A stretch of 64,000 bases of DNA from Erysipelotrichaceae bacterium (lineage in GTDB: Bacteria; Bacillota_I; Bacilli_A; Erysipelotrichales; Erysipelotrichaceae): the NCBI GenBank assembly GCA_017512885.1, contig JAFWEP010000028.1, positions 1 through 64,000 on the forward strand, given 5' to 3'. The notes under the pieces are model-generated. The model was given only the letters and a program-made list of their open reading frames with translations. It did not search any database and was not told the origin of the DNA. Shown here one piece after another: positions 42,171-47,759 of the stretch (position 1 is its first letter; each line of letters starts with the position of its first letter). The position numbers were made by a program, and so were the translations under genes.

Positions 42171-43060
42171 TGCAGAGCCGCCTTTGCCAGCATCGCCGCT
42201 CCGACGATGCCCGGTTCTTTCAACTGAGCCAGAACGATCTGTGTATCGCGCATGCCGGGATGGATGAAGCTTTCGTAATACTTCTTCAGCAGCGGGAAGT
42301 AAAGCTCTGAAGAATGGACGGCGACACCGCCCCCGATCACGATGATGTCGGGATCGGCGACCAGCGCGATCGATGACAGCAGCCGGGCCAGATCGCAGGA
42401 CATCGTATCGATGAGCTCCTTGGCCTTTTCGTCTCCGGCCGCTGCAGCCTTAAAGAGTCCTGCCGCATTGCCGTAGCCCAGGGCTTTGGCCTTGCGGTTC
42501 AGCGCCGTACCGGAAGCTTCCGTTTCGGCGGAACCGGCATTGAGCTCGCTGATCTTCTCGCGGTGAGGGTCGATGATGATGTTGCCGATCTCGCCGGCAT
42601 AGCCATGGGCTCCGGAATGGATCTTCCCATTGATGACGAGAGCTCCCCCGATCCCCGTGCTCTGGGTCACGTAATAAACGATCGGGCACCCCTTCCCGGC
42701 TCCGGCCAGGGCTTCGCCGATACCGGCGACATTCGCATCGTTCTCCACGAAGACCGGGATGCCGAACTTTCTTTCCAGTCTCTCCGCCAGCGGATAATCC
42801 TTGAATCCGGGCAGATTGGTAGCCAGGGTCATCACCCGGCGGCGGGAATCGACCGGTCCCGGGACCCCGATCCCGATGCCTTTGCATTCCTGTAATTCCG
42901 CAAAGCCGCTCAGGATCTCTTCAATGTTGCCGGAGACCTTTTCCGGTCCTTCCTGGGCATAGGAAGGAGAATCCGCTTCTTTCAGCACTTCCCCTTCTTC
43001 ATTGATCAGAGCGATACGGACATTCGTACCGCCCAGATCGATACCGATATACTTGTTCAT
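42167..43060 (-). CDS. ROK-family sugar kinase, probable glucokinase, lacking the zinc motif
   Basis: 297 residues. The ATP-binding IGIDLGGTNVRIALI, GVPGPVD, FVENDANVAGIGEA and STGIGGALVING are intact, so it should be active on glucose or a similar hexose. The usual ROK zinc site (His in GEIGH and CxCGxxGCxE) is replaced: the sequence reads GEIGNIII and SELNAGSAETEASG with no cysteine. Translationally coupled to rimO and galM by ATGA overlaps. Confidence 0.88.
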   Translation of the reverse strand: MNKYIGIDLGGTNVRIALINEEGEVLKEADSPSYAQEGPEKVSGNIEEILSGFAELQECKGIGIGVPGPVDSRRRVMTLATNLPGFKDYPLAERLERKFGIPVFVENDANVAGIGEALAGAGKGCPIVYYVTQSTGIGGALVINGKIHSGAHGYAGEIGNIIIDPHREKISELNAGSAETEASGTALNRKAKALGYGNAAGLFKAAAAGDEKAKELIDTMSCDLARLLSSIALVADPDIIVIGGGVAVHSSELYFPLLKKYYESFIHPGMRDTQIVLAQLKEPGIVGAAMLAKAALQ

Positions 43061-44364
43061 ATTTCTTCCTCCGCGATCACCGCCAGGAGATCGTACTCCC
43101 GGTATCCGGTGATCTCACACATGACAAATTCTCCGACCCTTAGACTTCCGGCATCCCGGATCCGGACTTCCGGATCCACCCCTTCCGGAGCAGAGAAGTA
43201 AGCCCGTCCGGTACTGATCCCCCGGAAAGGATCGTTCTTTTCCACCAGGACCGGCAGTTTCTGTCCGATGCGGGCAGCGTTCTTTTCTTCGCAGATCGCT
43301 TTCTGGGTCTCCATCAGTTCCCGGTATCTTCTTTCCTTGATCTCTTCCTCGACCTGATCGGGCATATCATAGGAAGGCGTATCTTCCTCCCGGGAATAAG
43401 TGAAGGCGCCCAAGGAATCAAAACGCTGTTCCCTGATGAACTGCAGGGTCTCCCGGAAGTCTTCTTCCTCTTCTCCCGGGAAGCCGACCATGAAGGTCGT
43501 ACGTAAGACTTCCTTCCCGCCGAAGATCTCGTGGATCAGAGCGAACTTCTCTCTCAGGAAAGCGGTACTGGTCGGACGGCGCATCGCTTTCAGGATGCGG
43601 TCGGAACCGTACTGGACCGGCATATCGAAATACGGCAGCACCCGCCTGCAGGAAGCGACGGTCCGCAAGAGCTCTTCGCTCATCTCATCCGGATAGAGGT
43701 AGAGGATCCTGATCCAGGTGAAAGGAAGTTCGTCCAGCTGCTTCAGCAGTTCCCCCAGGGCAAAGTGACCGTAGAGATCTCTTCCGTAGTAGGCGCAGTC
43801 CTGGGCGATCAGGTTCAGTTCCTTCACTCCCTCTGCTGCCAGCCCTTTCGCTTCTTCGACCAGTTCCTCGATAGGCCGCGACTGATAGCGTCCGCGGATC
43901 AGAGGGATAGCGCAGTAGGCACAGCGATGGTTGCAGCCTTCGGCGATCTTCAGATAGGCAAAGTAGGAAGGAGTCAGCCGGCTGCGTGCGTTGAGATCGG
44001 CTGCCGCAAAGTCCAGATGCAGGGTATCCAGCAGGATCTCCTTGATGCGGGGATAGTCATCGATGCGGATGAAGGCATCGACTTCCGGCAGGGCTTCTTT
44101 CAGGTCTTCCGCATAGCGCTGCACCAGACAGCCGCTGACGATCAGTTTCTTCAGACGGTCTTTCTTGTATTCCGCCATCTCCAGGATGGTATCGATGGCT
44201 TCCTTCTTGGCAGCCTCGATGAAACCGCAGGTATTGATGAAGATCACATCACACTTGGCCGGATCGCTCTCGATCGTAAAACGGCCGTCACGGAAAAGAG
44301 ACAGCAGATGTTCGCTGTCCACCAGATTCTTGGAACAGCCCAAAGAGATAAAACCAACGTTCAT
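43057..44364 (-). CDS. rimO: Ribosomal protein S12 methylthiotransferase RimO
   Basis: 435 residues from ATG 44362-44364, which has GGAGG upstream and begins MNVGFISLGCSKNLVDSE. The N-terminal cluster cysteines (GCSK, INTCGF, SGCLVQ), the radical-SAM CNHRCAYCAIP and a C-terminal TRAM domain are all visible. It methylthiolates an Asp of S12. A 106-residue in-frame upstream extension lies antisense/out of frame to the Gx gene and is rejected. 4-base overlap with the Gx gene. Confidence 0.95.
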   Translation of the reverse strand: MNVGFISLGCSKNLVDSEHLLSLFRDGRFTIESDPAKCDVIFINTCGFIEAAKKEAIDTILEMAEYKKDRLKKLIVSGCLVQRYAEDLKEALPEVDAFIRIDDYPRIKEILLDTLHLDFAAADLNARSRLTPSYFAYLKIAEGCNHRCAYCAIPLIRGRYQSRPIEELVEEAKGLAAEGVKELNLIAQDCAYYGRDLYGHFALGELLKQLDELPFTWIRILYLYPDEMSEELLRTVASCRRVLPYFDMPVQYGSDRILKAMRRPTSTAFLREKFALIHEIFGGKEVLRTTFMVGFPGEEEEDFRETLQFIREQRFDSLGAFTYSREEDTPSYDMPDQVEEEIKERRYRELMETQKAICEEKNAARIGQKLPVLVEKNDPFRGISTGRAYFSAPEGVDPEVRIRDAGSLRVGEFVMCEITGYREYDLLAVIAEEEI

Positions 44365-44849
44365 AAACGGATCCTCCGTAATACCTGTACCGCGATACTG
44401 CCGGTCAGGATACCGGTCAGCAGAGAAGAGACCAACAGCGTCGGCAGCAGGATGGCGATGCCAGGCTGGGCATAGAGCAGGATGACACACAATAACTGTC
44501 CGAGGCTGTGAGCCAGCGCCGACAGGATCGAAGAGAAGAGCACGGAGCTCTTCAGTCTCCTCGTCAGCAACAGACTCAGCGAGGACAGGAAGATCCCGGA
44601 AGCCGAGATCCAGAACGGCGCCCCGAAGAGGATCCCCTTCAGCAGGTTCCCCAGCGAGAGCCTCAAGAGATTGACGGTCCACATCTCCTTTACCCCAAAG
44701 AGCTGCAGTGTGACCAGAGCCACGATATTGGCCAGTCCCAGCCGGATCCCGAACTGTAAGGGCGGGATAAAGGCTGCCTCGACCAGATTGATCACGATGG
44801 CGATCGCTCCCAAAAGACCCAGCAGCGCTGTTTTCCTTGTCTTACTCAT
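44361..44849 (-). CDS. Gx transporter / heptaprenyl-diphosphate-synthase component I family
   Basis: 162 residues, nearly all hydrophobic, five to six helices. The FGIRLGLANIVALVTL and LGNLLKGILFGAP segments match the Gx family (Hpre_diP_synt_I), once named for heptaprenyl diphosphate synthase and resembling ECF substrate-binding units. It overlaps the NusG_II gene by 8 bases; these two are commonly paired in Bacillota near quinone or flavin electron-transfer genes, though none is visible here. Confidence 0.85.
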   Translation of the reverse strand: MSKTRKTALLGLLGAIAIVINLVEAAFIPPLQFGIRLGLANIVALVTLQLFGVKEMWTVNLLRLSLGNLLKGILFGAPFWISASGIFLSSLSLLLTRRLKSSVLFSSILSALAHSLGQLLCVILLYAQPGIAILLPTLLVSSLLTGILTGSIAVQVLRRIRL

Positions 44850-45254: not shown

Positions 45255-47732
45255 ATGAAAAAGATCGTACTGGGGCTCTTTGCGGCGGTAGACGCCGGCA
45301 AGACGACGCTCTCCGAGGCTTTCCTGGTCGCCAGCGGCCAGCGCCGGGACGGAGGACGGGTCGACAAAGGAACGGCCCTTTTGGACTATAACGAACAGGA
45401 ACGAAAGAGAGGCATCACCATCTTCCTCAAGGAAGAGCGCTTTCTTTATCAGGACGTCTCCTTCAACATCCTGGATACCCCCGGTCACCGCGACTTCGCC
45501 GAAGAAAGAAGACGGGCCTTGAAAGCAGTCGATGCCGCAGTCTTCCTCTTGTCGGGAAGCGAAACGCTGCCGGCGGCAGCGATCGCCCTCTTCCGGGAAC
45601 TGCAGGAAGCCCGCATCCCCCTCTTCCTCTTCGTCAACAAGATGGACATCAGTCCCTATGCGAAGGAAGAGATCCTGCGCAGGATCCGGAGCGAACTGAG
45701 TCCGCTCTGTTTCCCCCGTGAGGAACTGGCTGAACAGGTCGCTTTGACCGATGAGAAACTGCTGGAGCAGTATCTGGAGAGCGAGACGCTCGATCCGGCC
45801 GTCCTGGAGAAAGCGGTCCGGGAGCGTTACTTCTATCCGGTCTTCTTCGGTTCCGCCCTGAAACAGGACGGGATCGAAGCCTTCCTGCAGGAGCTCTCCT
45901 GCTATGCCCGGGAGAATAACGATCCGCAGGTATCCGCCTATGTCTACAAAGTCTCCCGTCAGGGAAAGGAACGTCTCCTGCATACCCGCATCTTCTCCGG
46001 CACGCTGAACAGCCGCGATCCTTTGGGCGAAGAGAAGATCGCCGAGATCCGTCTCTACAACGGGAAGCAGTATGAGTCCGTGCGCAGTGCCGGACCGGAT
46101 GAGCTCTGCGTCCTGCGCGGTCCCGAAAACATTGCGGCCGGTACATTCCTGCCCTCTCTGCAGCAGGAGAAACAGGTCTTCCCCCTCTTCCTGCGTTACC
46201 GTATCCTCTCGGAGATGGACAGCGGCTACCTCTACGGCCAGCTGAAGCAGCTGGAGGAAGAATTCCCCGATCTCGATGTCCGCTACGATGCCGCCCGCAA
46301 GGAACTCAGCGTGAACCTGCAGGGCGAACTGCACGGCGATGTGCTGAAGACGATGCTGAAGGAACGCTGCGGGGCTGAGATCAGCTATACGGAACCGCCC
46401 CGCGAGATCCGCGAAAGTCTCAGTGACAGCGTCTACGGTTTTGCCCACTTCGATGTCTTGAAACACTTCGCGGAAGTCACCCTGCAGATCGAACCGCTCC
46501 CTGTCGGCAGCGGCCGCGAGATCCGCTGCCTGCCGGTCTCGGCAGCTGCTTCGGTACTGCTTTCGATCCTGCAGGAAGAACCTCCCCGGGGGATCTTCAC
46601 GGACGGACCGCTGGAAGACGTCAGGATCACCATCCTGAAGATCGAGACCAGTCAGAAACATACGACGGCAGCCGATATCCGGGAAGCGCTGACCCGCGCT
46701 CTCTATCAGGCCCAGGAGAAGACCCGTCCCCTCTTCAGCGAACCCTGTGCCTTCTTCCGGCTCTTTACGAAAGCGGAAGATCTGGGAAGCTTACAGAACT
46801 ATCTGGCCAGAGAGAATATCGCCTTCACCCCGGAAGAGGATCACCTGCTGGCTTCTTCTCCCCTGCCCAAACTGCAGGATCTGCGCCGGGAGCTCTCTGC
46901 CCTGCATACCGAACTGGAAGTCTATGACCAGCGTCCGCAGCTCTGCGCCGACCAGCAGGCCGTCTATGCTTCGTATCTGCCGCTCGATCCCGCCGCCCAT
47001 GTCTCTTCTTCGCTCTATCTGAAGAACGGCAATGTGCTCAGCGTTCCCGGAAGCGAAGTCGAAAAGTATGCCGGGGTCGTCTATGAACGCAGGCAGTCCT
47101 CCTACGAGAGCGGACCGATGAAGGTCAGCGAGAAGGAACTGCAGCGGGTCTGGTCCGCTACCTACAAGGAAAAGGAACGCTGGATCGAGAAGGAACAGAA
47201 GAAACAGGCCGAGGAAGAAAGACGGGAACTGCAGCTGCAGAAGTCCCGTGAGACCTGCTTCCTGATCGACGGCTATAACCTGTTGTATGCCACCGAAGAG
47301 ACAGCTTCGCTCGCCCGGCAGGATCTCTTTGCCGCCCGTGAGAAGCTGCTGGACAGGCTCAGCGACATGCAGGGCTACTTCGGGGTACGGATGATCGTCG
47401 TCTTCGATGCCTACAAGCGGGACAGTTCCCGCCCGGTCAGCACCGAACGGGAGAACCTCACCGTCGTCTATACCCAGGAAGACCATTCCGCCGACCGTTA
47501 CATCCAGGAGAACGCCGGAGCGCTGTCCCAGCACTACCGGCTGATCGTCGTCACTTCCGACGCCCTGGTCCAGCTCTCGGTCTTCGGTTCCGCTTCCCTG
47601 CGCCTCTCTTCCCGGGAATTCAACGAACGCTACGAACAGTTAAAGAAAAAGATCTCCCTGCCGGAAAAGAAAGCCAACCGGCCTCTGGAAGACCTGCGTG
47701 CGATCTTCTACCAGGAAGACGGAGATCAGTAA
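45255..47732 (+). CDS. TetM-like translational GTPase fused to a Rae1/YacP-type NYN endoribonuclease
   Basis: 825 residues. Residues 1 to about 215: GTPase domain close to ribosomal protection proteins, with P-loop AAVDAGKTTLSE, switch I RVDKGTALLDYNEQERKRGI, DTPGHRDF carrying the catalytic His, and NKMD. EF-G-like domains II-V follow to about 600, including a domain IV loop SQKHTTAAD at the place where TetM contacts the decoding site. A charged coiled-coil-like linker (about 625-665; KEKERWIEKEQKKQAEEE) leads to a NYN nuclease (about 667-825): CFLIDGYNLLYA, VVFDAYKRDSS, YTQEDHSADRYIQ, IVVTSDALVQ, as in YacP/Rae1, which cuts mRNA inside the ribosomal A site. Divergent from the NusG_II operon, leaderless-looking. 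Not a simple tetracycline-resistance gene. Confidence 0.9.
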   Translation: MKKIVLGLFAAVDAGKTTLSEAFLVASGQRRDGGRVDKGTALLDYNEQERKRGITIFLKEERFLYQDVSFNILDTPGHRDFAEERRRALKAVDAAVFLLSGSETLPAAAIALFRELQEARIPLFLFVNKMDISPYAKEEILRRIRSELSPLCFPREELAEQVALTDEKLLEQYLESETLDPAVLEKAVRERYFYPVFFGSALKQDGIEAFLQELSCYARENNDPQVSAYVYKVSRQGKERLLHTRIFSGTLNSRDPLGEEKIAEIRLYNGKQYESVRSAGPDELCVLRGPENIAAGTFLPSLQQEKQVFPLFLRYRILSEMDSGYLYGQLKQLEEEFPDLDVRYDAARKELSVNLQGELHGDVLKTMLKERCGAEISYTEPPREIRESLSDSVYGFAHFDVLKHFAEVTLQIEPLPVGSGREIRCLPVSAAASVLLSILQEEPPRGIFTDGPLEDVRITILKIETSQKHTTAADIREALTRALYQAQEKTRPLFSEPCAFFRLFTKAEDLGSLQNYLARENIAFTPEEDHLLASSPLPKLQDLRRELSALHTELEVYDQRPQLCADQQAVYASYLPLDPAAHVSSSLYLKNGNVLSVPGSEVEKYAGVVYERRQSSYESGPMKVSEKELQRVWSATYKEKERWIEKEQKKQAEEERRELQLQKSRETCFLIDGYNLLYATEETASLARQDLFAAREKLLDRLSDMQGYFGVRMIVVFDAYKRDSSRPVSTERENLTVVYTQEDHSADRYIQENAGALSQHYRLIVVTSDALVQLSVFGSASLRLSSREFNERYEQLKKKISLPEKKANRPLEDLRAIFYQEDGDQ

Positions 47733-47735
47733 AAG

Positions 47736-47759
47736 CCCCCGGTCAGTGACCGAGGGTTT
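47736..47759. terminator. Bidirectional terminator between the GTPase-nuclease and DEAD-box genes
   Basis: CCCcCGGTC and GACCGaGGG pair with one mismatch, with TTTT on the right and AAAA on the left. It fits in the 30 bases between the two convergent stop codons. Confidence 0.8.

Follow-up and report, generated by a model that had tools for sequence, protein, structure and literature searches.

The window (the whole stretch of 64,000 nucleotides that was analysed) contains an 825-aa open reading frame at 45255-47732 (+) that begins with ATG and has no internal stop codon. This single frame confirms the sequence-only reading of the locus, according to which intact GTPase motifs are followed without a stop by an NYN nuclease. 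The gene stands alone: its neighbours are encoded on the other strand, and a terminator-like hairpin follows it (Table 1). A RimO-like frame elsewhere in the window (43057-44682, minus strand) is listed as 541 aa and has 435 aa in congeners; because it overlaps the frame 44361-44849, its first ~105 residues are probably non-coding.

Table 1. Features of the fusion gene, with positions in the window and residue numbers of the encoded protein.
Feature	Residues	Position	Strand	Remarks
Whole fusion gene		45255..47732	+	825 aa, monocistronic
G domain	1-222	45255..45920	+	AAVDAGKTT P-loop, RGITI switch I, DTPGH with catalytic His78, NKMD, GSAL
EF-G-type domain II	223-310	45921..46184	+	
EF-G-type domain III	311-380	46185..46394	+	
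Domain IV	381-491	46395..46727	+	in TetM and EF-G, this domain reaches into the A site
Domain IV tip KHTTAAD	468-474	46656..46676	+	KHTEGGD in the family consensus, SPVSTPAD in classical Tet proteins
Domain V and TetM-like C-terminal helix region	492-606	46728..47072	+	
Linker	607-664	47073..47246	+	predicted single helix of ~39 residues running into the nuclease; motif (S/K)xxEL.RV(W/F/Y).xTY, present also where homologues lack the GTPase
NYN_YacP / Rae1 nuclease domain	665-805	47247..47669	+	catalytic Asp672, Asp718, Asp747, Asp769
Terminator-like inverted repeat		47736..47756		common to the fusion gene and the convergent DEAD-box helicase gene

Pfam matches in the protein were GTP_EFTU (residues 5-217, E 4.2e-37), EFG_IV (residues 387-490, E 1.4e-6) and NYN_YacP (residues 670-806, E 1.1e-33, 117 bits with a cut-off of 24.6). 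When the protein was compared with PDB sequences, the GTPase half matched TetO and TetM best (E ~1e-43), and the C-terminal end matched B. subtilis YacP/Rae1 best (5mq9, E 4e-17). The GTPase half is a complete protein of the EF-G/TetM type with domains I-V and a C-terminal helix, and it shares this five-domain body and all GTPase motifs with TetM/TetO (3j9y, 4v6v). The nuclease domain has the fold and acidic residues of B. subtilis Rae1/YacP (5mq8, 5mq9) at ~32% identity over the domain; in B. subtilis, however, Rae1 exists as a separate protein of ~170 aa whose gene lies next to rlmB, whereas the window's domain forms the C-terminal end of a large GTPase encoded elsewhere.

Both enzymes look catalytically competent, judging from their conserved residues. 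The G-domain motifs listed in Table 1 were read directly in the protein, as were HTTAAD, DGYN, VVFDAY, SADRYI and TSD, and the P-loop is the usual AHVDAGKTT with the His replaced by Ala. The P-loop, the switch I Thr, the DTPGH His and NKxD are unchanged in all 105 fused homologues, save for one N128S. The acidic residues of the NYN nuclease, on which the proposal of an mRNA-cutting enzyme turned, are all in place: the four Asp residues at 672, 718, 747 and 769 (window numbering) are found in the window protein and are invariant in 105/105 fused homologues. Sequence alignment places Asp672 opposite Asp7 of Rae1; Asp7 and Asp81 are reportedly the residues mutated in the work on Rae1.

A full-length AlphaFold model, built from 21 family members, contained all EF-G domains. 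When compared by VIA-align, model residues 1-601 matched residues 1-639 of TetM (3j9y) with a Z score of 29.4 over 564 aligned residues, at an rmsd of 23 that reflects differently placed domains. The position of the nuclease relative to the GTPase carried no confidence in this model (pTM 0.43), and its placement is not interpretable. A separate model of the linker and nuclease was confident (mean pLDDT 89), with a single helix of ~39 residues leading into the nuclease, and its only strong PDB matches were Rae1 5mq9/5mq8 (the top three were all Rae1). The linker has ~60 residues in the window protein and ranges from 60 to 178 residues across the fused homologues. Since its motif (K/S)xxELxRV(F/Y/W)xxxYxxxxR is kept in most genes that encode only the NYN part, the motif belongs to the nuclease module.

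Distribution of the fusion and replacement of stand-alone rae1

The fusion is widespread in Erysipelotrichales, Lachnospiraceae and Oscillospiraceae. The window's own genome is 2.09 Mb in 50 contigs. A single NYN_YacP match is found in 44 of 60 relatives, and almost all of these matches lie in frames of 830-880 aa. Among 391 genomes of the class, every NYN_YacP match above the cut-off was a fusion or a frame-broken fusion. The 80 named GTDB loci closest to the window's nuclease span Lachnospiraceae, Oscillospiraceae, Erysipelotrichaceae and unnamed Clostridia; 77 of them are fused, and the remaining three are located at contig edges or have interrupted frames. A chance fusion, an assembly artefact or a frame error was rejected, as these 77 loci and nearly all relatives are likewise fused.

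Short candidates were inspected individually. Five short or stand-alone candidates (L218, L220, L221, L222 and L223) proved to be fusions with frame changes, L224 was an assembly gap, and L123, L129, L138, L030 and L033 lay at contig edges or had broken frames. Among the candidates inspected, only one related genus, g3, yielded forms that are truly trimmed or NYN-only. We found no conserved partner gene beside the fusion beyond the genus. In the nuclease tree, the fused NYN domains fall almost entirely on one side, with two changes. This pattern fits a single fusion followed by later changes; the positions of L152 and of the unfused L190 are uncertain.

The sequence-only reading had proposed a search for co-occurring stand-alone yacP, and fused and separate forms turned out to be nearly mutually exclusive. 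NYN_YacP occurs in 193 of 293 Clostridia genomes; the 150 matches listed comprise 84 of fused size, 62 of stand-alone size and 4 intermediate. Only 4 of the 193 genomes carry two copies; about 18 double carriers would be expected under independence from the listed Clostridia numbers alone, a figure that genome kinship makes a guide rather than a test. The survey of relatives revealed no stand-alone copy, apart from the reduced forms of genus g3.

Stand-alone rae1 in Clostridia lies 3' of rlmB in the order cysS-mrnC-(thyX)-rlmB-rae1-sigH-...-secE-nusG (C. difficile, G663, G712 and G799). The gene is missing from an otherwise present cysS-rlmB-sigH row in the fusion-bearing Clostridia G564, G775 and G811, and likewise in the fusion-bearing wider relatives G093, G037 and G026. 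The window's own genome has 95 bases between rlmB and the sigma-factor frame, with no rae1 between them. Because the rae1 site is empty in fused genomes, the fusion takes the place of the separate gene that was lost. This replacement was not found in the literature searched.

Record L251 (NZ_CP149721.1) and 11 similar C. difficile records are labelled as plasmids, and L251 holds the chromosomal cysS-rlmB-rae1-sigH-tuf-rplK region; at least one of these records, and probably all, are misassigned pieces of chromosome. Host-like yacP/rae1 genes also occur in the phage-collection records H62-H71 (Listeria phage LM, Staphylococcus phage SA and Enterococcus phage Efs), and these look like host DNA in phage preparations.

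A separate GTPase clade and its trimmed derivatives

In a tree of the GTPase part, the fused proteins and a group of unfused proteins of ~655 aa form one clade (SH-aLRT 99), separate from the clade of classical Tet proteins (99). The domain IV tip is KHTxGGDF in the fused and unfused group, KHTTAADI in the window protein and SP(V/A)STPADF in 5/5 classical Tet proteins. TetM Pro509 at this tip overlaps and displaces bound tetracycline (PMC7456112); none of the 105 fused and none of the 12 unfused sister proteins has the SPV(S) tip residues, Pro509 included. The NCBIfam model tet_protect scored 236 bits with the window protein against a cut-off of 775. Unlike TetM/TetO, the fusion has an added nuclease, and identity to them is ~30%. 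The fused GTPase is, on its residues and phylogeny, no classical tetracycline-protection protein.

The unfused sister GTPases (loci L201-L210 and L214), annotated as 'translation factor GTPase' in Clostridia, are the nearest relatives of the fused GTPase half and share its tip, but have no linker or nuclease. They occur with a separate Rae1 or without any (genomes G735, G695, G644, G663, G805, G570, G597, G829, G573 and G740, with two copies in G644). The window's genome also encodes a second EF-G-like protein of 693 aa (L004, G000:C25:12217-13020); its P-loop reads GHAGSGKT, Ser and Tyr replace the switch I Thr and the catalytic His, respectively, and by sequence it is a divergent EF-G2.

Domain IV is the best conserved part of the other fused members, with 66% mean identity versus 54% for the G domain and 50% for NYN; the value for domain IV of the window protein is 33%. 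The lineage of the window forms a long branch in the GTPase tree, and in congeners the tip reads RQDAYEEC. Between congeners, dN/dS was 0.01-0.23 in every domain, which shows purifying selection, so no domain is decaying in the window's genus and a decaying pseudogene was rejected. The window's genus and genus g3 form one clade with support 100. Loss of the tip throughout this clade was also considered and rejected: most full-length g3 members retain KHTEG(G/Q)D, and the alignment shows the change in the window's genus only.

In some members of genus g3, which belongs to Erysipelotrichaceae, the GTPase half has been shortened or lost. In G005 (L219/L230) and G852 (L228), domains IV and V and the C-terminal helix are deleted in frame, leaving proteins of 603 and 615 aa that consist of G-II-III, the linker and the nuclease. 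These variants resemble RF3 (G-II-III class) in having no A-site domain of the EF-G kind, but they carry a nuclease, and the likeness lies in the domain set rather than in shown release-factor kinship. Five further genomes (G857, G866, G868, G865 and G853; loci L227, L229, L231, L232 and L234) encode only the linker and nuclease, 201-226 aa, and no GTPase of the fused kind was found elsewhere in them; these genomes are 72-95% complete. As the GTPase is trimmed or lost while NYN stays, the nuclease is the part kept by selection and the GTPase the part open to trimming.

The sequence-only reading had also ascribed to the protein the ligand eviction of TetM-class factors. For this lineage, that part finds no support, since the GTPase falls outside the classical Tet clade and SPV(S)/Pro509 is absent; eviction of this kind is likewise at odds with the diverged tip in the window's genus and with the loss of domains IV-V or of the whole GTPase in the related genus.

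Possible action of the fusion on the ribosome

We propose, with a probability of roughly 0.6, that the gene supplies the organism with its Rae1, in the form of an endonuclease that cuts mRNA in the A site and that a translational GTPase carries to stalled ribosomes. A ribosome-directed mRNA cutter on a translational GTPase, as the sequence-only reading had it, is still the best account of the protein, as both enzymes look competent and the nuclease is that of Rae1 in its sequence, its fold and its distribution among genomes; that the fusion binds ribosomes, cleaves mRNA and couples this to GTP is what we infer. Rae1 is an A-site mRNA endonuclease of the ribosome (PMC6613710, PMC12320835). In B. 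subtilis, loss of rae1 suppresses an efp mutant, in which ribosomes pause (PMC6613710), and cleavage in the A site clears the path for tmRNA-SmpB (PMC12320835). SmpB is encoded in the window's genome.

Under this proposal, the GTP-bound EF-G-like body would dock at the factor site of stalled ribosomes with an empty A site. GTP hydrolysis would loosen or release the body, and the nuclease, on its helix of ~39 residues, could then move into the vacated A site and cut the mRNA, after which tmRNA-SmpB would rescue the truncated complex. The GTPase would thereby provide ribosome targeting and timing, for which free Rae1 would have to rely on diffusion. The conserved KHTEGGD tip of most members probably checks for an empty A site, and this check may have been altered in the window's genus and dropped in its relatives, with the nuclease as the retained function. 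More tentatively, and with slightly less than even confidence, the family may be a distinct class of translational GTPase that carries the nuclease as cargo, in which GTP times the entry of a tethered Rae1 and so gates mRNA cutting on stalled ribosomes; in some Erysipelotrichaceae the nuclease may have taken over the place of domain IV (G-II-III + NYN).

Several points count against this proposal. If the protein binds as TetM does, domain IV and the nuclease would need the same A site, so that they must act in turn or the nuclease must cut elsewhere; natural loss of domains IV-V would be expected if the conflict can be solved by dropping domain IV. Stand-alone Rae1 acts without a GTPase in B. 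subtilis, and the full-length AlphaFold model does not position the nuclease against the GTPase with confidence. The existence of an unfused sister GTPase means that the GTPase has a job independent of the nuclease, and since the sister often occurs with a separate Rae1 or with none, that job needs no nuclease.

In the main rival, the two halves act independently: the GTPase would be an A-site clearing or recycling factor and the nuclease an ordinary Rae1, with the fusion only keeping their numbers equal at the ribosome and GTP not controlling the cut. The unfused sister with the same KHTxGGDF tip agrees with it, as do the NYN-only genes that outlast loss of the GTPase and the spread of linker lengths, which makes tight mechanical coupling unlikely in all members. 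However, stand-alone rae1 is cleanly replaced in a wide range of taxa and the helical linker motif is conserved, both of which suggest more than chance tethering, and proteins that have lost domains IV-V in frame still have the nuclease attached to G-II-III, as though it were still served by the GTP module. We regard independent action as rather unlikely.

It is improbable that the protein is a ribosomal protection protein against tetracycline or another antibiotic with an accessory RNase, as proposed in 2015 (PMC4342817) and implied by automatic annotation. TetM/TetO are its best PDB sequence matches and NCBI names homologues 'TetM/TetW/TetO/TetS family', but the missing SPV(S)/Pro509, the separate clade and the low tet_protect score all argue otherwise, as do its inheritance among the core genes of Erysipelotrichales, the lack of conserved resistance genes beside it and a domain IV that is degenerate or lost in the window's relatives. 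A mobile resistance gene was also considered and rejected: the fusion-bearing records (Monoglobus and Agathobacter) are large replicons or chromosome-like pieces, and no close fused match was found on a typical resistance plasmid. The fusion is probably the native Rae1 of the cell rather than a gene for antibiotic resistance. Public-record names in the family are 'TetM/TetW/TetO/TetS family tetracycline resistance' or 'translation factor GTPase', and such names stand on L192 (Agathobacter rectalis), L190 (a Ligilactobacillus salivarius plasmid) and L191 (Monoglobus); the resistance labels among these are probably false calls.

Processing of rRNA or tRNA by the nuclease, with the GTPase aiding ribosome assembly or quality control, would agree with the original proposal of rRNA/tRNA maturation for NYN (cited in PMC4342817) and with the position of the stand-alone gene next to rlmB and mrnC, both encoding rRNA enzymes, but is very improbable, as the studied orthologue Rae1 cuts mRNA in the A site (PMC6613710, PMC12320835) and the TetM-like body targets assembled 70S ribosomes.

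The architecture itself has been known since 2015, when Tet-NYN fusions were described from sequence in ten Clostridiales with the suggestion of resistance via RNase activity (Atkinson 2015, PMC4342817). Those proteins have the same order, a TetM-like GTPase followed by a YacP-like NYN domain on a single chain, but they were placed in the Tet subfamily, whereas our tree puts the fusions outside the classical Tet clade. The present analysis also differs in the replacement of rae1, the spread to Erysipelotrichales and the trimmed and GTPase-less derivatives, and the window's copy differs in its diverged domain IV tip. No experimental study of the fusion was found in the literature searched; to our knowledge, three findings are new: that the fusion replaces rae1, that its GTPase belongs to a separate clade with a characteristic tip, and that trimmed or GTPase-less derivatives exist.

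The list of bacterial ribosome-associated enzymes that cleave mRNA is incomplete, and gut Firmicutes seem to include a whole group whose Rae1 is linked to a GTPase. The homologues in gut genomes that are named 'TetM/TetW/TetO/TetS family tetracycline resistance' are probably no resistance genes, which bears on resistome counts. The natural series of full-length, domain IV-V-deleted, nuclease-only and GTPase-only forms is well suited to testing what the GTPase contributes.
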